64,000 bases of DNA, taken from positions 186,001 through 250,000 of the forward strand of contig NZ_JAPJDA010000001.1 of assembly GCF_026241755.1 (NCBI RefSeq), read 5' to 3'. The notes beneath the pieces were generated by a model, which saw only the letters and a list, made by a program, of their open reading frames with translations, had not been told where the DNA came from and made no database searches. Below are positions 4,224 to 61,155 of this stretch, one piece after another. Every line of letters starts with the position of its first letter. Position 1 is the stretch's first letter. The DNA is from Salinimicrobium profundisediminis. GTDB taxonomy: Bacteria; Bacteroidota; Bacteroidia; Flavobacteriales; Flavobacteriaceae. The position numbers and the translations under genes are program-made.

Positions 4224-4664
4224 ATGAAAGAAAAAACCATTGATTACGTTCTTCGCGCGACCTGGATTGCTATTGCTAAAATGTACAATGAAGAGGCCGG
4301 AAAAGAAGGAAGTACAATGGCTACAGGCTTTGCTCTTTTGAGTATAGATCCCGAGGAGGGCACCCCTTCTACCTCCCTGGGCCCAAAAATGGGAATGGAA
4401 GCCACCAGTTTGTCGCGAACCCTTAGAACCATGGAGGATAAAGGTCTCATAAAGCGGAAGAAAAATCCGGTAGACGGGCGTAGTGTCTTAATTTACCTCA
4501 CCGATTTTGGAAAAGAGATGCGCGATTATTCTAAGAAAGTGGTACTTACTTTTGACCAGGCGGTAAGAAATGAAATCCCTCAAGAAGATCTCGATAAGTT
4601 TATTGAGGTAGCTTCAAAAATCATGGATCTTATTGCCACGCGTAAAATTTACAATGAATCATAA
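4224..4664 (+). CDS. MarR-family winged-helix transcriptional regulator
   Basis: This 146-residue protein has the MarR arrangement: N-terminal dimerisation helices, a recognition-helix region around residues 45-75 (MGMEATSLSRTLRTMEDKGL) and the winged hairpin KRKKNPVDGRSVLIYLTDFG (about 76-96). It sits immediately upstream of fadN with 34 bp between its stop and the preferred fadN start, so it is probably the first gene of the beta-oxidation operon and its regulator. MarR proteins commonly respond to acyl-CoA or aromatic ligands; an acyl-CoA effector is inferred from context only. Confidence 0.9.
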   Translation: MKEKTIDYVLRATWIAIAKMYNEEAGKEGSTMATGFALLSIDPEEGTPSTSLGPKMGMEATSLSRTLRTMEDKGLIKRKKNPVDGRSVLIYLTDFGKEMRDYSKKVVLTFDQAVRNEIPQEDLDKFIEVASKIMDLIATRKIYNES

Positions 4665-4698
4665 AATCGTTCAGGCGATTATCAAAATAAATAACAAC

Positions 4699-7104
4699 AT
4701 GAAAAGACGAATCAACAAAGTTGCAATTATAGGTTCGGGGATTATGGGAAGTGGTATTGCCTGCCATTTCGCCAACATTGGCGTAGAGGTGCTACTACTA
4801 GATATTGTTCCCCGGGAACTGACCGAAAAAGAAAAAAAACAGGGTCTTACCCTGGAAGACAAACAGGTGAGGAACCGTATTGTTAACACAGCACTGCAGG
4901 ATGCTTTAAAATCGAAGCCCTCTCCTATTTATCATAAAGACTTTGCCAATCGCATTAAAACCGGAAACCTGGAAGATGATATCTCGAAGGTATCGGAAGT
5001 TGACTGGATCATGGAGGTTGTTGTGGAGCGCCTGGATATTAAAAAACAGGTTTTTGACAATCTTGAAAAGCACCGCAAACCGGGAACATTGATCACCTCC
5101 AATACTTCAGGAATCCCAATTCAGCAAATGAATGAAGGCCGAAGTGAAGATTTCCAGAAACACTTCTGCGGAACACACTTTTTCAACCCTCCGCGATATT
5201 TAAGACTGTTTGAAATTATTCCGGGGCCAGATACTTCCGAAGAAGTTTTGGAATTCCTCAATGAGTATGGAGAGAAATTCCTTGGAAAAACTTCGGTAGT
5301 CGCAAAAGACACTCCGGCGTTTATTGGGAACAGGATTGGCACTTACAGTATCATGAGCCTTTTCCACATGGTGAAGGAGCTTGATCTTACTATTGAAGAA
5401 GTTGACAAACTTACAGGTCCCGTTATAGGAAGACAAAAATCTGCCACTTTTAGAACTGTAGACCTTGTAGGACTTGACACGCTTAAACATGTTGCTGAAG
5501 GCCTGCATAAAGGAGTGCCTACCGATGAAGAGCACGATCTTTTTGCCATGCCCGACTATATTAATACCATGGTCGAGAATGAGTGGTTTGGAAGTAAAAG
5601 CGGACAGGGTTTCTACAAAAAGATCAAGAACAAAGACGGTTCAAGTGAAATCCAGTCACTTGACCTTAATACACTTGAGTACCGGGCACAAAAAAAGGCA
5701 AATTTTGCTACTCTTGAATTAACGAAAACGATTGATAAAGTTTCAGATAGGTTTAAAGTTCTGGTTGACGGTAAAGACAAAGCCGGGGAGTTCTACCGAA
5801 AGAATTTTGCTGCTATTTTCGCCTACGCCTCTAAAAGAATTCCTGAAATCACCGATGAACTCTACAAAATAGATGACGCCATGAAAGCCGGTTATGGCTG
5901 GGAACATGGTCCGTTTGAAATTTGGGATGCCATAGGTGTTAAAGAAGGTATGGAAATTATGAAAGCTGAAGGCAAAGAGCCTGCAGCCTGGGTAAACGAA
6001 ATGCTTGAAAAAGAAAATAAAGGCTTCTATACCGTTAAAGACGGTAATACCTGGTATTACGATATTCCGGCAAAGGAGTACAAAAAGATTCCGGGGCAGG
6101 ATGCATTTATCATTCTGGATAACATCAGGGAATCCAAAAAAGTATTCAGTAACAGCGGAGTTGTAGTTGAAGATCTTGGCGACGGCATCCTGAATGTGGA
6201 ATTCCGCAGTAAGATGAATTCGATTGGCGGAGATGTTCTTGACGGACTCAACAAAGCCATTGATCTTGCTGAAAAAGAATACCAGGGGCTGGTTGTCGCC
6301 AACACCGGAAAAAACTTTTCTGTAGGAGCTAATATTGGGATGATCTTCATGATGGCTGTGGAGCAGGAATATGATGAGCTTAATATGGCTATAAAATATT
6401 TCCAGGACACCATGATGAGAATGCGCTACTCCTCTATTCCAACAGTTGCAGCACCACACGCTATGACTTTGGGTGGTGGATGTGAACTTTCACTACACGC
6501 AGATAAAGTTGTCGCTGCAGCCGAGACTTACATCGGACTTGTTGAATTTGGAGTTGGGGTAATTCCCGGCGGTGGAGGTTCCAAGGAAATGACCTTGCGT
6601 GCTGCCGATACCTTCCAAAAAGATGATGTGGAGTTGAACCGACTTCGGGAACATTTTCTCACCATTGGTATGGCAAAGGTTTCAACCTCAGCTTACGAAG
6701 CTTACGACCTGAATATTCTTCAGAAAGGAAAAGACATTGTGGTAATTAATCCAGATCGCCAGCTGGCAATTGCTAAAAAGCATGCGCTGCTCATGGCAGA
6801 GAATGGTTATACCAAACCTGTAAAGAGAACAGATATTAAGGTATTGGGTAAACAAGCACTGGGTGCCTTCTTAGTAGGTACAGACCAGATGTACGCCGGT
6901 AAATACATTAGCGAACACGACAAGAAGATCGCCAACAAACTGGCTTACGTAATGGCCGGAGGTGACCTTTCTGAAAACTCTTATGTGAGTGAACAATACC
7001 TGCTCGATCTGGAAAGAGAAGCATTCCTTTCTTTAACAGGAGAAAGAAAAACCCTGGAGAGATTGCAGCATATGTTGCAGAAAGGGAAACCGTTGAGAAA
7101 TTAG
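4699..7104 (+). CDS. fadN: 3-hydroxyacyl-CoA dehydrogenase/enoyl-CoA hydratase (FadN-type)
   Basis: This bifunctional beta-oxidation enzyme carries out hydration of enoyl-CoA and NAD-dependent oxidation of 3-hydroxyacyl-CoA. I chose ATG 4699 (801 aa, MKRRINKVAIIGSG) over upstream in-frame ATGs that overlap marR. The Rossmann motif GSGIMGSG is at residues 12-19, and catalytic His lies in HFFNPPRYLRLFEIIPG near 160. Two 3HCDH C-terminal domains follow. The crotonase domain is at the C-terminus (about 490-690), with GGGCELSLHA and GLVEFGVGVIPGGGG carrying the two catalytic Glu. Dehydrogenase-first order and length match B. subtilis FadN rather than FadB/FadJ. It is followed by an inserted S23 gene, then fadA and fadE. 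Confidence 0.95.
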   Translation: MKRRINKVAIIGSGIMGSGIACHFANIGVEVLLLDIVPRELTEKEKKQGLTLEDKQVRNRIVNTALQDALKSKPSPIYHKDFANRIKTGNLEDDISKVSEVDWIMEVVVERLDIKKQVFDNLEKHRKPGTLITSNTSGIPIQQMNEGRSEDFQKHFCGTHFFNPPRYLRLFEIIPGPDTSEEVLEFLNEYGEKFLGKTSVVAKDTPAFIGNRIGTYSIMSLFHMVKELDLTIEEVDKLTGPVIGRQKSATFRTVDLVGLDTLKHVAEGLHKGVPTDEEHDLFAMPDYINTMVENEWFGSKSGQGFYKKIKNKDGSSEIQSLDLNTLEYRAQKKANFATLELTKTIDKVSDRFKVLVDGKDKAGEFYRKNFAAIFAYASKRIPEITDELYKIDDAMKAGYGWEHGPFEIWDAIGVKEGMEIMKAEGKEPAAWVNEMLEKENKGFYTVKDGNTWYYDIPAKEYKKIPGQDAFIILDNIRESKKVFSNSGVVVEDLGDGILNVEFRSKMNSIGGDVLDGLNKAIDLAEKEYQGLVVANTGKNFSVGANIGMIFMMAVEQEYDELNMAIKYFQDTMMRMRYSSIPTVAAPHAMTLGGGCELSLHADKVVAAAETYIGLVEFGVGVIPGGGGSKEMTLRAADTFQKDDVELNRLREHFLTIGMAKVSTSAYEAYDLNILQKGKDIVVINPDRQLAIAKKHALLMAENGYTKPVKRTDIKVLGKQALGAFLVGTDQMYAGKYISEHDKKIANKLAYVMAGGDLSENSYVSEQYLLDLEREAFLSLTGERKTLERLQHMLQKGKPLRN

Positions 7105-7129
7105 TATTGAGTAGTAAATAGAGCTAGTA
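7103..7129 (-). repeat. Left heptad array flanking the S23 gene
   Basis: Between the fadN stop (7102-7104) and the S23 ATG (7130) the whole spacer has seven-base periodicity, each unit carrying a TAG/AGTA core (e.g. AGTATTG, AGTAGTA). AGTATTGAG at 7103-7111 is the exact reverse complement of CTCAATACT at 7489-7497 on the other side of the S23 gene. Confidence 0.7.
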
Positions 7130-7483
7130 ATGCACAAACTGAGCGACCTTAAGATCTGGAACAAAGCCATGGATGTGGCTGAATTGACATACTTACTTTC
7201 AGCTAAATTTCCTTCAGAAGAAAAATTTGGCTTAACAAGTCAAATAAGGCGCAGTGCAATTTCAGTTCCTTCTAATGTTGCCGAAGGAGCTGGTAGATCT
7301 ACAAAGGGAGAATATAAAAATTTCTTAAGTATTGCTAATGGATCTTCTTATGAACTTCTAACTCAACTCATTTTATCTCATCGACTCAATTTGGTGCCTG
7401 AAGAAGATACCAGAGAAGTTATTTCGGAGGTGATTGAAATACAGAAAATGAATTATGCATTGATAAAATCGTTAGAAAAGTGA
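7130..7483 (+). CDS. S23-type four-helix-bundle protein (IVS/Avd-like family)
   Basis: This 117-residue helical protein carries family signatures LKIWNKAMDVA (7-17), FGLTSQIRRSAISVPSNVAEGAGR (about 33-56, with Q-I-R-R-S and N-I/V-AEG) and the C-terminal amphipathic helix. The family (23S rRNA intervening-sequence protein, TIGR02436-like) includes the ORF of 23S rRNA intervening sequences and the Avd accessory protein of diversity-generating retroelements. Its molecular role outside DGRs is unclear. The gene is an obvious insertion into the fadN-fadA pair and both edges are heptad arrays in inverted orientation. No reverse transcriptase or variable repeat is visible, so a DGR role is not supported here. 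Confidence 0.9.
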   Translation: MHKLSDLKIWNKAMDVAELTYLLSAKFPSEEKFGLTSQIRRSAISVPSNVAEGAGRSTKGEYKNFLSIANGSSYELLTQLILSHRLNLVPEEDTREVISEVIEIQKMNYALIKSLEK

Positions 7484-7521
7484 GTAGTCTCAATACTCAC
7501 TACTAACTACTAAATACTGAA
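7484..7521 (+). repeat. Right heptad array flanking the S23 gene
   Basis: The array starts at the S23 stop and ends just before the fadA ATG (7524). From 7494 it consists of four consecutive heptads beginning TACT (for example TACTCAC, TACTAAC). The stretch 7488-7517 agrees closely with the two heptad arrays near the pyc stop at about 53.2-53.3 kb, so it belongs to a dispersed family. Confidence 0.75.
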
Positions 7522-7523
7522 AA

Positions 7524-8717
7524 ATGAACAAAACAGCTTACATCGTAAAAGGATACCGAACTGCAGTGGGAAAAGCGCCGCGGGGGGTATTCCGATTTAA
7601 AAGGCCAGATGAATTAGCGGCAGAAACTATCCAGTTTATGATGGATAAGCTGCCCGAATTTGATAAAAAACGCATCGATGACGTGATCGTTGGTAATGCT
7701 ATGCCCGAAGCCGAACAGGGACTTAACGTAGGGCGTTTTATCTCCCTCATGGGGCTAAACACAGAAGACGTTCCCGGGATGACGGTGAACCGTTACTGCG
7801 CCTCAGGTCTCGAAACCATTGCTATTGCAACAGCCAAGATCCAGAGCGGAATGGCTAATTGTATTATTGCAGGTGGTGCAGAAAGCATGAGCTATATCCC
7901 AATGGGCGGTTATAAACCAGTTCCCGATTATAAACTGGCTAAAGCCGGAAAGGAAGATTATTACTGGGGAATGGGATTAACTGCGGAAGCAGTTGCTCAA
8001 AAATACAAGGTTTCAAGGGAAGACCAGGATGAGTTTGCATTCAACTCTCATCAAAAGGCTCTAAAAGCCCAAAAAGAAGACCGCTTCCAGGATCAGATCG
8101 TACCAATCACCGTAGATCAAACTTATGTGGATGAAAATGGTAAAAAACAAACGAAATCTTACACCGTCAATAAAGATGAAGGACCTAGAGCCGATACTTC
8201 AAAAGAAGTTTTAGGAAAACTAAGACCTGTTTTTGAAGAAGGTGGTAGTGTGACTGCAGGTAACTCTTCTCAAATGAGTGATGGTGCCGCTTTCGTCATG
8301 GTAATGAGCGAAGAAATGGTGAAAGAACTAAACCTGGAGCCGGTGGCAAGACTTGTTAGCTATTCGGCTGTTGGGGTTGAACCAAGGATCATGGGAATTG
8401 GACCCGTACATGCCATTCCTAAAGCAGTTAAACAAGCTGGGATTCAACTTAATGACCTTGAGCTGATCGAGCTTAACGAAGCTTTTGCATCTCAGTCTTT
8501 AGCAGTGATTAGAGAACTTGGACTTGATATGAACCGCATGAACCCTAACGGAGGCGCTATTTCGATGGGTCACCCGTTGGGATGTACAGGAGCCAAACTA
8601 TCAGTGCAGTTGTTCGATGAAATGCGCAAACGTGACCTGAAGAATAAATACGGAATGGTAACCATGTGCGTAGGTACAGGACAGGGAGCCGCAGGAGTTT
8701 TTGAATTTCTGTCGTAA
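7524..8717 (+). CDS. fadA: Acetyl-CoA C-acyltransferase (3-ketoacyl-CoA thiolase)
   Basis: This 397-residue thiolase catalyses the CoA-dependent cleavage that ends each beta-oxidation cycle. The nucleophilic Cys is in VNRYCASGLETIA (near residue 92). The other signatures are NEAFASQ (about 322), NPNGGAISMGHPLGCTG with the catalytic His (about 343), and CVGTGQGAAG with the second Cys near the C-terminus. Length matches the family. It is the second fad gene in fadN-fadA-fadE order, separated from fadN by the S23 insertion and from fadE by a 103-bp spacer containing CTAG heptads. Confidence 0.96.
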   Translation: MNKTAYIVKGYRTAVGKAPRGVFRFKRPDELAAETIQFMMDKLPEFDKKRIDDVIVGNAMPEAEQGLNVGRFISLMGLNTEDVPGMTVNRYCASGLETIAIATAKIQSGMANCIIAGGAESMSYIPMGGYKPVPDYKLAKAGKEDYYWGMGLTAEAVAQKYKVSREDQDEFAFNSHQKALKAQKEDRFQDQIVPITVDQTYVDENGKKQTKSYTVNKDEGPRADTSKEVLGKLRPVFEEGGSVTAGNSSQMSDGAAFVMVMSEEMVKELNLEPVARLVSYSAVGVEPRIMGIGPVHAIPKAVKQAGIQLNDLELIELNEAFASQSLAVIRELGLDMNRMNPNGGAISMGHPLGCTGAKLSVQLFDEMRKRDLKNKYGMVTMCVGTGQGAAGVFEFLS

Positions 8718-8722
8718 AAAAA

Positions 8723-8812
8723 GAGACTAGAAACTAGAGTCTAGATACTAGACTTTTCAACTAAAATAAAAACCAGTCTAGACTCTAGGTTCTAGAAGTC
8801 TAGGTTCTAAAA
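8723..8812. repeat. CTAG heptad arrays forming a hairpin
   Basis: CTAG occurs at 8727, 8734, 8741 and 8748, exactly seven bases apart, and again at 8778, 8785, 8792 and 8800. CTAGAAACTAGAGTCTAGA (8727-8745) pairs with 8777-8795 with 18 of 19 matches and a loop of about 31 nt. The element fills most of the fadA-fadE spacer, has no ORF, and shares the seven-base period of the arrays around the S23 gene. Confidence 0.75.
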
Positions 8813-8820
8813 AAAACAAA

Positions 8821-10641
8821 ATGAGCACACAAACAGATAGCAACAAAAAAGACCTTCTTCGCGGAGGGCAGTTTCTGGTAAAGGAAACAAAAGCAGAGGA
8901 TATTTTTACTCCCGAAGATTTTTCGGATGAGCAAAAAATGATGCGCGAATCGGTACAGGAGTTCGTGAATCGGGAAGTAATGCCGAAGAGAGAAGAGTTC
9001 GAAAAGAAGAATTACGACCTCACAAAAGAGTTAATGGAAAAGGCCGGGGAAATGGGCTTTTTGGGAGTTTCAGTTCCTGAAGAGTACGACGGGCTGGGAA
9101 TGGGATTTGTAACTACCATGCTGGTAGTGGATTATATTTCAGGGGCTACGGGATCATTTTCGACTGCTTTTGGAGCCCATTCGGGGATTGGAACGCTTCC
9201 AATTACCCTCTATGGTAATGAGGAACAAAAGAAAAAATATCTTCCGAAGCTCGCTACTGGAGAATGGTTTGGGGCCTATGCATTGACCGAGCCGGGAGCT
9301 GGTAGTGATGCAAATTCAGGAAAGACAAAAGCAGTTCTTTCTGAAGACGGAAAGTATTACAGCATTACAGGTCAAAAAATGTGGATCTCCAATGCCGGGT
9401 TCTGCAATATGATGATCGTCTTCGCACGAATTGAAGATGACAAAAATATCACCGGATTTATCGTGGAATATGATCCTGAAAATCCAAATGGTATTTCTCT
9501 TGGGGAAGAGGAAAAGAAACTTGGTATCCACTCCTCCTCTACCCGTCAGGTATTCTTTAATGAGACAAAAGTGCCTGCAGAGAATATGCTTTCAGAAAGA
9601 GGAAACGGATTCAAAATTGCCATGAACGCCCTTAACGTGGGCCGTATCAAACTTGCAGGAGCCTGTCTTGACGCCCAGAGAAGATCTATTGATGCTTCAG
9701 TAAAATATGCAAATGACCGCGTGCAGTTTAAAACTCCAATCTCCCAGTTTGGTGCGATACAGTCTAAACTTGCAGAGATGGCAACTTCAGCTTACGCAGG
9801 GGAATCGGCTTCATATCGTGCTGCAAAAGATATTGAAGACAGGATTTCTATCCGTCAGGAAGAAGGAAATTCCCACCAGGAAGCCGAATTGAAAGGGGTT
9901 GAAGAATACGCTATTGAATGTTCTATTCTTAAAGTGGCAGCTTCAGAAGATCTTCAGAATTGTACCGATGAAGGTATCCAGATCTTTGGGGGAATGGGCT
10001 TCTCGGCCGATGCTCCTATGGAATCTGCCTGGAGAGATGCACGTATCACCCGTATTTATGAGGGTACAAACGAGATTAACCGAATGCTTTGCGTAGGGAT
10101 GCTCGTAAAGAAAGCTATGAAAGGCCATGTTGATCTTTTAGGGCCTGCTACCAAAGTTGGAGAAGAACTCACTGGAATTCCCTCTTTTGACAAACCTGAT
10201 TTTTCTGAACTTTTTGCTGAAGAGAAAGAAATGGTCAAAAAGTTGAAAAAGGTATTCCTGATGGTTGCCGGTAGTGCAGTTCAAAAATTTGGACCTCAGC
10301 TGGAAGATCACCAGCAGTTGTTATTGGCTTCTGCCGATATTTTAATAGAGATCTACATGGCTGAATCCACGATCTTGAGAACTGAAAAAAATGTGAACCG
10401 CTTTGGTGCCGATACTCAAAAAGAGCAAATTGCGATGGCAAAATTGTACCTGTACCACGCTGTTGACATTATTAATCAAAAAGCCAAAGAAGGAATTGTT
10501 TCTTTTGCTGAAGGTGATGAACAAAGAATGATGTTGATGGGACTAAAAAGATTTACAAAATATGAAAATCAGCCAAACGTCGTAGAATTGCGTAAGGTGA
10601 TTGCCGATAAAGTAATTGGAGAGAATAAATATCCTTTCTAA
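8821..10641 (+). CDS. fadE: Acyl-CoA dehydrogenase, FadE type with C-terminal extension
   Basis: This 606-residue FAD enzyme introduces the first double bond in fatty-acyl-CoA. The ACAD fold spans about residues 40-440. It includes the flavin/substrate motif AYALTEPGAGSDANSG (about 158-173) and the catalytic Glu in RIYEGTNEINRM near 420. The remaining 165 residues form a helical extension, as in B. subtilis FadE (about 594 aa). Together with fadN and fadA it completes a beta-oxidation cycle except for the acyl-CoA ligase and the electron-transfer flavoprotein, which are not in the window. A strong terminator follows, marking the operon end. Confidence 0.95.
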   Translation: MSTQTDSNKKDLLRGGQFLVKETKAEDIFTPEDFSDEQKMMRESVQEFVNREVMPKREEFEKKNYDLTKELMEKAGEMGFLGVSVPEEYDGLGMGFVTTMLVVDYISGATGSFSTAFGAHSGIGTLPITLYGNEEQKKKYLPKLATGEWFGAYALTEPGAGSDANSGKTKAVLSEDGKYYSITGQKMWISNAGFCNMMIVFARIEDDKNITGFIVEYDPENPNGISLGEEEKKLGIHSSSTRQVFFNETKVPAENMLSERGNGFKIAMNALNVGRIKLAGACLDAQRRSIDASVKYANDRVQFKTPISQFGAIQSKLAEMATSAYAGESASYRAAKDIEDRISIRQEEGNSHQEAELKGVEEYAIECSILKVAASEDLQNCTDEGIQIFGGMGFSADAPMESAWRDARITRIYEGTNEINRMLCVGMLVKKAMKGHVDLLGPATKVGEELTGIPSFDKPDFSELFAEEKEMVKKLKKVFLMVAGSAVQKFGPQLEDHQQLLLASADILIEIYMAESTILRTEKNVNRFGADTQKEQIAMAKLYLYHAVDIINQKAKEGIVSFAEGDEQRMMLMGLKRFTKYENQPNVVELRKVIADKVIGENKYPF

Positions 10642-45116: not shown

Positions 45117-45247
45117 GATTTTTTCTCATTTAAGTTATGTTCACAAATATAAGAATCACCTGCTCTTTTTTAGCCCCTTTCGATTCGGGGATTGCGTGGA
45201 AAGCAGAAAAATTTTCAAAAAATATTTTTTTAGAATAAATTCCCTTC

Positions 45248-45255
45248 TATATTTG
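45248..45255 (+). promoter_or_regulatory. Probable trp promoter -7 box
   Basis: TATATTTG is an exact TAnnTTTG match 9 bp before the leader-peptide ATG at 45264, so the leader would be nearly leaderless. There is no TTG at the ideal -33 distance; only T-rich sequence lies there. Confidence 0.55.
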
Positions 45256-45263
45256 CTATTCAA

Positions 45264-45320
45264 ATGAACCTGATCAACAAAAATAACTGGTGGTGGAAAT
45301 TCTTACGTCAATCGTCGTGA
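45264..45320 (+). CDS. trpL: trp operon leader peptide
   Basis: This 18-codon ORF encodes MNLINKNNWWWKFLRQSS, with three consecutive Trp codons (45288-45296), and ends at TGA 45318. It lies 80 bp upstream of trpE, before a terminator hairpin. Three adjacent Trp codons immediately ahead of an attenuator are the signature of ribosome-mediated transcription attenuation. Confidence 0.85.
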   Translation: MNLINKNNWWWKFLRQSS

Positions 45321-45376
45321 GCAACACCTCCTGTAATAATATACAAAGGCTTGTCAATCACGACAAGCCTTTTTTT
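45314..45376 (+). promoter_or_regulatory. trp attenuator (terminator plus antiterminator)
   Basis: AAAGGCTTGTC (45345-45355) pairs with GACAAGCCTTT (45362-45372), followed by a T run: the terminator. GTCGTGA (45314-45320), which overlaps the leader stop codon, can instead pair with TCACGAC (45358-45364). That would disrupt the terminator when the ribosome stalls at the Trp codons. Confidence 0.75.
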
Positions 45377-52443: not shown

Positions 52444-53105
52444 TCCTCAAAAAACTGACGGTATTGCAAGACCCTGAAATCAATTGTATTGAATTCAGGG
52501 TCTTGTTTTTTTAAGTGTTTGTACAGCTCCATACTTCCAATAGCCCTGTTCGCAGATCCCGACGGTGCGGTGAGTGATACCGTATTGATTGGCCGCCCAT
52601 CCAGCAGGAACTGGTGTACCCTGGGCACATCATTGGAAATCACCTTGATCTTAATATCATGATGCTTTAGGAGCTTTCTGAAGAAGAACTCAGGGCCGTT
52701 TTTACTGTTTCCGCCGGTAAATAACAACGTATCTATTTCTGGATGTTTCCGAAGGATTCCGATAAGATCCCGCAACTCTACGTGGAGCATTCCGAGGTCT
52801 GAGGCGTCTATTTTGTCCCTCCTGCAACTTTCTACCGTATCGCAAATCCCAATCCCCTTACTCGCCAGGAAATCCTTTCGCTGTTTTACGGCTTCGGGAG
52901 TATTCTCAAATTTGAGATCCAGATCAAAGATCCTGTCGATGATTTGCCACAACATCCCGTCCCTGCTGCCATAGCAAAAATCCACATCATCTTCTTTTAA
53001 TTCCCCTGTTGTAAACCGGGGTGGTGGCAAGGTGCCAACAATGAGTTTCGTAGCATTTTCGGGAATAAATGGTTTGTAGGGATGTTGGTGATGAAACAGG
53101 TTCAA
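52440..53105 (-). CDS. Uracil-DNA-glycosylase-superfamily protein
   Basis: This 221-residue protein resembles the compact UDG superfamily: LIVGTLPPPRF (about 22-32, motif I region, G-T-L-P-P-P), FCYGSRDGMLWQIIDRIF (about 43-60) and LLFTGGNSKNG (about 127). The last motif is SLTAPSGSANRAIG (about 178-191). It presumably removes a deaminated base. The ORF begins with TTG (53105-53103) because an in-frame stop lies just upstream and no ATG or GTG precedes the conserved residues. The start overlaps a heptad array. Confidence 0.75.
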   Translation of the reverse strand: MNLFHHQHPYKPFIPENATKLIVGTLPPPRFTTGELKEDDVDFCYGSRDGMLWQIIDRIFDLDLKFENTPEAVKQRKDFLASKGIGICDTVESCRRDKIDASDLGMLHVELRDLIGILRKHPEIDTLLFTGGNSKNGPEFFFRKLLKHHDIKIKVISNDVPRVHQFLLDGRPINTVSLTAPSGSANRAIGSMELYKHLKKQDPEFNTIDFRVLQYRQFFED

Positions 53106-53330
53106 GGTTTAATGTTTAAGGTTTATCTCACGATCCAGGTTGCAGGTTACAAGTCTGACAAGGTGTTGCGGGTTGCGCAAAAATCAATATTGGAATTTGG
53201 TGCTTGAAATTTGGTGCTTTAATCTCAATTCTCAGTACTAACTTCTCAATACTTTTATTGCGTAATAGGCACGGATTGCAAATCCGCGCCATCTATTTCT
53301 CAATACTCAGTACTAACTTCTCAATACTAT
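53103..53330. repeat. Heptad arrays flanking a REP-like hairpin
   Basis: Seven-base periodicity runs through most of this spacer: AAGGTTT-type units at 53104-53124, GGTTRCA at 53138-53151, a 14-base unit near 53193-53219 and TCTCAAT-type units at 53223-53257. A second copy of the TCTCAAT array is at 53298-53330, almost identical over 31 bases. Between the two copies lies a hairpin, GGCACGGATT (53268-53277) with AATCCGCGCC (53281-53290). The second copy ends at the pyc stop codon (53327-53329). Confidence 0.7.
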
Positions 53331-60591: not shown

Positions 60592-61047
60592 ATGAAAACA
60601 GCAGTTTTTCCCGGTTCTTTTGATCCCATCACCCTGGGACATGTTGATATCATTAACCGCGGACTCCCACTTTTTGACCAGGTCATCCTCGCAATTGGTA
60701 CCAATTCAGACAAAAAATATATGTTCTCTCTCGAAGAGCGGGTCAGGTTTTTGGAAGAGACCTATAAAGATGAACCAAAGATCAAGGTGATGACCTACAA
60801 AGGCATGACAGTGGATTTTTGCAGGGAACAAAACGCCGGATTCATTTTACGCGGCCTTCGTAATGCCATTGATCTGGAATTTGAAAAGAGCATTGGCCAA
60901 ACCAACTTTAAAATGAGCGGAGTAGAAACCCTTTTCTTTATCACTTCCTCCGGAAAAAGCCATATTTCCTCAACCGTTGTTCGCGATGTGATTCGCAATG
61001 GCGGAGATTATCATTTTATGGTACCAGATGCCGTTTCAAAGGAATAA
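60592..61047 (+). CDS. coaD: Phosphopantetheine adenylyltransferase
   Basis: This 151-residue nucleotidyltransferase makes dephospho-CoA from phosphopantetheine and ATP. GSFDPITLGHVDII (8-21) contains the T/HxGH motif. RGLRNAIDLEFE (about 87-98) and GKSHISSTVVRDV (about 121-133) with the ISST motif are also present. It follows ddl by 39 bp and is probably cotranscribed. The final codons merge into a heptad array. Confidence 0.96.
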   Translation: MKTAVFPGSFDPITLGHVDIINRGLPLFDQVILAIGTNSDKKYMFSLEERVRFLEETYKDEPKIKVMTYKGMTVDFCREQNAGFILRGLRNAIDLEFEKSIGQTNFKMSGVETLFFITSSGKSHISSTVVRDVIRNGGDYHFMVPDAVSKE

Positions 61048-61155
61048 GGAATATTGTTTATTGAATATTTTATTATTATTTATTTTTTGTGGTTTAAAAG
61101 GAATACTGCTTACTATTGATTGATAATTGCTGATTGCTAATTGTTCATTGATTTA
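61041..61155. repeat. Heptad arrays between coaD and the TonB receptor
   Basis: From within the coaD stop region (61041) GGAATAA/GGAATAT-type heptads run to about 61075. From 61114 six exact heptads, mostly starting TG and ending AT, run to 61155. That covers the stop codon of the minus-strand receptor (61153-61155). There is no ORF. Confidence 0.65.

Follow-up and report, generated by a model that had tools for sequence, protein, structure and literature searches.

S23 genes framed by inverted heptad arrays: hints of a small, exchangeable cassette between bacterial genes

Introduction

Why does a gene of the S23 family, a kind of gene carried by intervening sequences (IVSs) of 23S rRNA, lie between two fad genes, and why do the short spacers on its two sides carry repeats in opposite orientation? 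The question is raised by a 64,000-nt stretch of the Salinimicrobium profundisediminis genome (contig NZ_JAPJDA010000001.1, positions 186,001 to 250,000; the window in what follows), for which a preliminary description made from the sequence alone had proposed a small IVS-like mobile element at the fadN-fadA junction. Our analysis of this gene and of its relatives in other genomes suggests that a small type of genetic cassette, apparently not described before, may be widespread; in it an S23 gene is framed by inverted arrays of a short tandem repeat and the repeat unit goes with the S23 lineage.

We know of no function for S23, or four-helix-bundle, genes. Known heptad repeats include the cyanobacterial STRR sequences and the heptad hairpins of Nostoc introns. 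Published work is cited here for particular passages of each paper. The passages drawn on from PMC4990558 present the Xanthomonas campestris S23 protein as a pentamer built of four-helix bundles, state that S23 proteins have no known function, and report that in the Coxiella rRNA IVS the S23 ATG is preceded by three tandem GACAGAT heptamers and a degenerate copy, the number of heptamers differing among strains. Among heptamers reported from elsewhere, TAACTGA repeats of Beggiatoaceae and others lie mostly directly upstream of start codons, with 'no mechanism' of horizontal transmission evident according to the passage cited (PMC4679880), and GGGAATC repeats are described from Xanthomonas and Nostoc (PMC4692102).

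The S23 gene and its arms at the fadN-fadA junction

An intact open reading frame (ORF) of 117 codons at 7130-7483 on the plus strand encodes an S23, or 23S_rRNA_IVP, four-helix-bundle protein of 117 aa that matches the profiles PF05635 at 126.7 bits (cut-off 33.8) and TIGR02436 at 121 bits (cut-off 24), which bears out the earlier statement that an S23-family gene interrupts fadN-fadA. A Pfam search of the protein returned PF05635 as the sole family and no transposase domain, and its solved relatives are 2gsc (XCC0516, E 1.4e-22) and 2rld (E 0.0008). The immediate neighbours are fad genes. The upstream ORF at 4633-7104 (plus strand, true start perhaps further in) has 3-hydroxyacyl-CoA dehydrogenase and enoyl-CoA hydratase domains (3HCDH_N, 3HCDH and ECH_1) and is presumably fadN, while the downstream gene at 7524-8717 (plus strand) encodes a fadA-type thiolase with TIGR01930 above its cut-off. 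With these flanking genes and no rRNA match at gathering thresholds within the window, the S23 gene is not inside 23S rRNA.

The left heptad arm (7102-7129, plus strand, AGTATTG type) begins inside the stop codon of the upstream gene and is short and degenerate, the left spacer of S23 being only about 25-28 nt long; the left arm of the orthologue in genome G004 is longer. Its inverted counterpart, the right arm (7484-7518, plus strand, CTCAATACT type), stops 5 nt short of the thiolase start codon. As had been pointed out, AGTATTGAG at 7103-7111 is the exact reverse complement of CTCAATACT at 7489-7497 and the two spacers are inverted relative to each other; together the arms form an imperfect inverted repeat (75-84% over 16-28 nt) and pair in the predicted fold of 441 nt (z -3.4; 1 of 100 shuffles equally stable). 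The further claim that both spacers are entirely seven-base periodic holds for the downstream side (lag-7 score 23/28, shuffle p 0.0025) and fails for the upstream side, where a stretch of 160 nt showed no significant 7-base period (its best lag-7 score over 28 positions was 15; shuffle p 0.077). The proposed likeness to the plan of an rRNA IVS is likewise partial. As in the 23S rRNA IVSs of Leptospira and Coxiella, an S23 ORF lies within complementary ends in a unit of about 400 nt, and heptamers are present in the published IVS; unlike them, the cassette studied here lies outside rRNA, between protein genes (PMC4990558, passages cited).

Inverted arms across the S23 family

The arm-S23-arm anatomy is common across the family and, where both arms are clear, unit and period are common to both. 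The S. profundisediminis genome has 15 PF05635 matches, three of them with an internal stop, and lag-7 self-match exceeded shuffles (p < 0.05) upstream of 9/15 and downstream of 10/15; three of the loci that failed this test (S1, S11 and S13) look period 8 by eye. When flank periodicity was expressed as the best 28-position self-match at each lag, S23 flanks peaked at lags 7, 14 and 21 on both sides in this genome (15 loci), the genus (26), the family (28) and a set of 80 species genomes. The last set comprises the best 80 of 576 confirmed stretches among the matches listed and leans towards the query; it is mostly Bacteroidota by title, and titles of metagenome-assembled genomes (MAGs) can be wrong.

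Both arms scored at least 17/28 at lag 7 or 8 in 8/14 loci of this genome, 63/100 of the genus (which include the former 14), 10/28 of the family, 12/29 of the phylum and 49/78 of the 80-species set, compared with 2/345 ORFs of the same genome and 14/117 other ORFs of the 80-species loci taken as controls; four loci with short or masked flanks (genus 1, phylum 1, 80-species set 2) were dropped from this count. An inverted score of at least 24 was obtained, in the same order, for 7/14, 59/100, 13/28, 16/29 and 51/78 loci, compared with 5/345 and 12/117 controls. A chance local repeat was rejected as an explanation by the family-wide lag, inverted-arm and control tests. In the 80-species set the left arm scored on average 29.5 against the reverse complement of its own right arm, 15.8 (sd 5.2) against a right arm taken from another locus and 21.5 when the two arms were compared in direct orientation. 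Own arms beat 95% of foreign pairings at 10/15 loci of the S. profundisediminis genome, 14/26 of the genus and 12/28 of the family. Arm periods in the genus were (7,7) at 48 loci, (8,8) at 10, mixed 7/8 at 4 and others at 3, and in the remaining sets the corresponding counts were 58, 8, 3 and 4. The arms of loci L131 and L132 appear by eye to consist of 8-9-base units rather than heptads (e.g. CAACTTCAA).

S23 genes were found in 116/148 sampled phylum genomes, with up to 16 copies per genome, and the 80-species set has clear arrays at loci titled Ignavibacteriae, Terriglobia, Clostridia, Thiohalocapsa, Thiodictyon, Patescibacteria and Campylobacteraceae. Twelve of 29 matching plasmid records were examined, all of them cyanobacterial and two (L304 and L305) near-copies of each other; their S23 loci had lag-7 means of 20.7 and 20.8 of 28 (n=12), with GGGAACA and AGGGTGT among the array units, and an inverted score of at least 24 was reached in 7/12, L310 and L308 being direct and L311 without an array. 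Two of these plasmids have the gene order cas6-S23-cas4 (L307, 1180-1548; L310, 1201-1560), L307 with a type I-D cas1d in addition, and the long arrays of L310 are of AGCTAAA type and direct rather than inverted.

The repeat unit follows the S23 lineage

S23 lineage and repeat unit go together. The comparison covered 101 of 119 genus matches, distributed over 27 sites defined by neighbouring genes, with an array on at least one side at 89/101 loci and on both sides at 64/101. Among pairs of these 89 loci from different sites and different genomes, arrays were shared by 44% at an S23 similarity of at least 0.70 (n=50) and by 0.2% at a similarity below 0.25 (n=2808). Within one genome, sharing was seen in 0/372 pairs below 0.40 similarity and in 2/3 pairs at 0.70 or above. 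At the same site, arrays were shared by 76.5% of 119 pairs with like S23 (at least 0.70) and by 2/61 pairs with unlike S23 (<0.55); on the latter count, the idea that arrays belong to the junction and not to the cassette was rejected in the genus. When all sets were taken together, different-site pairs shared arrays in the same sense in 45% of cases at a similarity of at least 0.65 (n=31) vs 0.6-0.9% below 0.40. Opposite-sense sharing occurred in 42% of the 31 different-site pairs at that similarity, and therefore the orientation of an S23 gene can be reversed with respect to its array.

Cassette exchange at the fadN-fadA junction

Whole cassettes have been exchanged between species at the fadN-fadA junction. 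The genus sample consisted of 12 genomes. The thiolase locus was found in 11 of them, all but G008, which has a completeness of 74%, and each of the 11 carries S23 between fadN and fadA, so that the proposed comparison with empty sites found none there and uncovered four different cassettes instead. By eye these are type A with an AGTATTG unit (G000 and G004), type B with CTAGAGT (G007, G011, G003 and G005), type C with GTATAGT (G010, G006 and G001) and type D with GAGATTT (G009 and G002, in both of which S23 has an internal stop). Placing the four types on an 11-species tree of fadA, atpG and scoB takes 6 changes, compared with a minimum of 3 and a mean of 6.2 for shuffled labels.

The proportion of synonymous differences (pS) was lower for S23 than for fadA in 11/11 same-type pairs (0.22-0.52 vs 0.39-0.73), as in G001-G006 (0.22 vs 0.71), G001-G010 (0.32 vs 0.73) and G007-G011 (0.35 vs 0.63), the gap being slight in G000-G004 (0.41 vs 0.46) and G003-G005 (0.34 vs 0.39). 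Pairs of type A with type D were reversed, with S23 pS above fadA pS (0.76 vs 0.61 and 0.72 vs 0.56), as expected of different cassettes. A slower synonymous change of S23 at fadN-fadA would also lower pS; other sites gave no such sign. The preliminary description had held that an S23 gene conserved between fadN and fadA with unrelated spacers would speak against it, and this arrangement was literally found, both in the 11 genus genomes and in 22/80 loci of other species with the order fadN-S23-fadA; within the genus a different spacer usually comes with a different S23 lineage, a pattern that points to cassette exchange. A fadN-S23-thiolase junction with a type C-like S23, as in Bacteroidota, was also seen in L110, a MAG locus titled Limnohabitans that may be a misbinned contig.

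Placement, gain and loss at other junctions

The S23 cassette fills the space from the stop codon of one gene to the start of the next co-directional gene, and both neighbours are co-directional with S23 at 135/149 loci (70/80 in the species set). In the S. profundisediminis genome such junctions include atpA-atpG, scoA-scoB, ffh-folD (FolD being named by family models, none of which reached its cut-off), ruvC-hemW and the spacer before peptide deformylase.

Orthologous junctions can be without S23 while arrays or remnants persist. At atpA-atpG, inspected by eye, six genomes have S23 with GAGTTA arms (one match partial), three have an S23-less inverted AGTATTG pair and two have other spacers, and in one genome a 49-nt spacer reads GAGTTGG...ATAACTCATAACT, which from its letters looks like the arms remaining after S23 loss. 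At scoA-scoB six genomes have S23 with period-8 arms (by eye), four lack S23 and keep right-arm pieces, one has both arms without S23 and one has a 10-nt spacer. In G002 the atpA-atpG (L288) and scoA-scoB (L299) spacers contain a palindromic repeat, ATTCCCGCGAAAGCGGGAAT in one and its reverse complement in the other, and this repeat sits in junctions that hold S23 cassettes in relatives.

Selection on S23 and pairing of the arms

S23 is under purifying selection. Its ORF is intact at 88/101 genus loci, and the median ratio of non-synonymous to synonymous substitution (dN/dS) was 0.07 over 128 same-site pairs (finite for 85, with synonymous sites near saturation), compared with 0.049 for atpG, 0.030 for fadA and 0.023 for scoB. 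In this the gene is unlike the ORF of the Coxiella IVS, which is described as decaying (PMC4990558, passage cited). The arms are conserved between orthologues as well, with scores over 101 pairs of 64.7 for the left and 80.8 for the right arm.

Selection at the RNA level on arm pairing is at most weak. The pairing energy of own arms as RNA was -26.3 kcal/mol in the 80-species set, vs -16.3 kcal/mol for foreign arms, and pairing of the antisense strand was on average stronger than that of the sense strand (-29.3 vs -26.3 kcal/mol). Raw A.C mismatches in arm pairing exceeded G.U, and after composition shuffling the G-U fraction was 0.403 vs 0.349 expected in the family, phylum and 80-species sets (p 0.03) and 0.430 vs 0.376 expected in the genus (p 0.03).

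Heptad arrays without S23

Arrays of the same kind also occur alone. The fad operon had been called otherwise tight, which does not hold, as the 103-nt spacer between fadA and fadE (8718-8820) holds two heptad arrays of a CTAGA unit, inverted relative to each other and with no S23 gene, and has a predicted fold of z -4.24. Its left arm (8722-8754, plus strand) shares its unit, as judged by eye, with the S23 cassettes of G007, G011, G003 and G005 and scores 0.66 to L032; the right arm (8776-8809, plus strand) is followed by the fadE acyl-CoA dehydrogenase gene (8821-10641, plus strand; NF058590 above its cut-off).

In 464 kb of the S. profundisediminis genome, 24 strict lag-7 arrays were counted, the right arm studied here included, compared with 10 arrays at lag 8 and 0, 3, 1, 2 and 0 at lags 5, 6, 9, 10 and 11, indicating that tandem heptads are over-represented, as they are for heptamer simple sequence repeats (SSRs) and STRR. 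A slightly looser rule that included period 8 gave 32 S23-less arrays in the same 464 kb. Units of the S23 cassettes of this genome were matched by 23/32 of them vs 8.2% for column-shuffled units, and units of the genus by 28/32 vs 28.7%. Within 160 nt, 11/32 solo arrays had a direct partner and 2/32 an inverted one, the fadA-fadE pair included, by a test that is not identical to the one applied to S23 arms; this suggests that an inverted partner is a feature of S23, or of junctions occupied by S23 in relatives, and not of arrays in general. Solo arrays as inverted REPIN-like doublets were mostly ruled out on the same count. A cluster in L186 (11915-18212; G000:C90, about 131.9-138.2 kb) contains 14 period-7 and period-8 arrays, 13 of which match the S23 cassettes own15 or own11.

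Discussion

We consider it probable that the S23 gene and its arms form an exchangeable intercistronic cassette, that the S23 protein recognises its own repeat family and that the rRNA IVS is a special site of the same element. S23 oligomers may bind single-stranded DNA or RNA of the cognate repeat and, by borrowing host enzymes of replication or recombination, help it to be copied or annealed; such copying would create inverted arms at birth and permit swaps at array-bearing junctions. The flanking arms would then be the home copies of S23, solo arrays elsewhere would be dispersed or relic copies, and by analogy the system would work like a REP/RAYT pair with a non-enzymatic binding protein. 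A 23S rRNA IVS would then be a cassette of this kind sitting in a loop of the rRNA, rendered harmless there through its removal by RNase III. A broader proposal, which we hold only tentatively and would call possible rather than probable, is that S23 genes and short tandem repeats constitute a two-part system in several phyla, each lineage recognising and helping to copy its own repeat family, making inverted arms around itself and seeding solo arrays.

A number of observations weigh against an exchangeable cassette with a repeat-recognising protein. The two arms of one locus score 31.4 against each other and 32.6 against the opposite arm of an orthologue, which gives no sign of concerted evolution; as arms are no closer within a locus than across orthologues, their complementarity looks like a mark of origin and not of upkeep. 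Similar S23 genes at different sites do not always have arrays in common (site 0 vs site 10 is one example), and the pair counts behind the lineage comparison reuse loci (L097 and L061 recur) and are hence not independent. In the species set, direct orientation outscores inverted at 18/80 loci, own arms beat 95% of foreign pairings at only 46/80, and loci titled Azonexus, Opitutae and Desulfosarcina stay below 17/28 at lag 7 on both sides. S23 genes without heptad flanks, anticipated as a contrary finding in the preliminary description, make up a minority of 12/101 genus loci with no array reaching 17/28 on either side. Over all sites, S23 pS fell below 0.75 of core pS in 27/163 same-site pairs (9 at site 0, 7 at site 4, 4 at site 3, 3 at site 2 and one each at four others), and exchange is therefore clear at fadN-fadA and rare or old elsewhere; the small mobile element first proposed stands as a unit exchanged at this junction and not as one exchanged in general. 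Inverted partners are rare among solo arrays, 14/32 S23-less arrays fall in a single cluster of ~6 kb (L186) with 10/18 matching outside it, and the authors on the Coxiella IVS regard S23p as probably not expressed and its ORF as decaying (PMC4990558, passage cited).

Genome-wide heptad density follows the copy number of S23 weakly at best, which also counts against the cassette as proposed. Over 17 genomes the correlation of S23 copy number was rho 0.46 (p 0.06) with strict heptad arrays and rho 0.28 (p 0.28) with spacer-wide heptad excess. In 16 further genomes of which 100 kb each were sampled, five without S23 have no strict lag-7 array, four with 4-13 S23 copies (G024, G031, G134 and G172) likewise have none, and one with 3 copies holds 14; a comparison of zero with nine or more S23 copies gave p 0.045 for strict heptad arrays.

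The cassette could also be read as a post-transcriptional device, in which the arms form an intercistronic mRNA hairpin that is cut or bound and so tunes translation of the next gene, S23 being an RNA-binding regulator of the array family to which its arms belong. Strong co-direction and stop-to-start placement, predicted hairpins, the better RNA pairing of own than of foreign arms, purifying selection on S23 and arm conservation between orthologues would all fit such a device, and MacGregor (2015) proposes translational control for start-codon-adjacent TAACTGA heptamers (PMC4679880, passage cited). We nevertheless regard it as rather unlikely, given that the G-U excess is weak, raw A.C exceeds G.U, antisense pairing is the stronger, the arms lack compensatory tracking and junctions lose or swap the cassette.

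Two further explanations separate the S23 protein from its repeats. If polymerase slippage made arrays in spacers and S23 merely settled there, the two would be unrelated, an improbable reading in our view even though PMC4692102 (passage cited) refers to slippage as a hypothesis on heptamers and arrays do occur without S23; the repeat unit follows the S23 lineage across sites, the arms are inverted with the same unit and period, and solo arrays seldom have an inverted partner. A transposon-like element, whose heptads would serve as terminal inverted repeats for binding of a transposase that acts in trans, would explain inverted termini of repeated sites and exchange at one site. This appears very improbable in view of the near-fixed orientation (135/149 loci) and the stop-to-start fit, and because S23 is the sole gene between the arms, has no transposase domain, and most same-site pairs look vertical.

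The exchangeable cassette has its closest parallel among known systems in REPINs and RAYTs (REP-associated tyrosine transposases). A RAYT gene is flanked by its repeats. Like it, S23 has a lineage-specific cognate repeat both beside the gene and dispersed (23/32 solo arrays, 14/32 of the arrays in one cluster), and in the REPIN/RAYT system too a gene has a cognate dispersed repeat, with inverted doublets predicted as hairpins (PMC3116915, passages cited). Unlike a RAYT, S23 is a small four-helix bundle in which only PF05635 was found and no tyrosine transposase (Y1), and unlike REPINs the repeats here are tandem heptads whose solo copies are mostly single and not doublets. The TAACTGA and GGGAATC repeats resemble S23 arrays in being intergenic tandem heptads; the passages cited draw no link to a gene between inverted arrays, and the terms S23 and 'four helix' are absent from the main text of both papers (PMC4679880, PMC4692102). 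Among the papers listed in our search of the open-access literature, none had a listing that ties four-helix-bundle genes in general to heptad arrays. A distant similarity links S23 to Avd, the accessory protein of diversity-generating retroelements (NF033474, E 2.1e-5), at 24.8 bits, far below the profile's cut-off of 80. In cas loci, 18 23S_rRNA_IVP genes with the motif GxxRxxxSxxxNxxE have been reported, in passages that make no mention of repeats (PMC3936711); the cas6-S23-cas4 order of the two cyanobacterial plasmids is a similar case.

In the literature cited, as far as the passages used here go, neither the cause of heptamer repeats nor the origin of rRNA IVSs is settled. A lineage-specific link between protein and repeat ties S23 genes, heptamer repeats and rRNA IVSs together, and makes each of them testable with one protein and its cognate array. 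If the two-part system were true, S23 proteins would gain a function and TAACTGA, STRR and GGGAATC repeats an origin, and rRNA IVSs would be one accidental landing site of the same element.

Other features of the window

Further solo heptad arrays lie in the distal part of the window. One at 53091-53125 has its unit in common with the S23 cassette own4 of this genome, and two at 61039-61073 and 61114-61154 have units in common with the cassettes own15 and own7. Two direct copies of an AGTATTG-family array were recognised by eye at 53224-53253 and 53299-53328. A palindrome, GGCACGGATTGCAAATCCGCGCC (about 53268-53290), lies between these two copies and was labelled REP-like by eye; copies and palindrome together (53190-53330) lie in the spacer that separates two minus-strand ORFs. 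A Bacteroidete tryptophan peptide leader RNA was matched at 45244-45355 (RF01692, 51.2 bits, cut-off 49).

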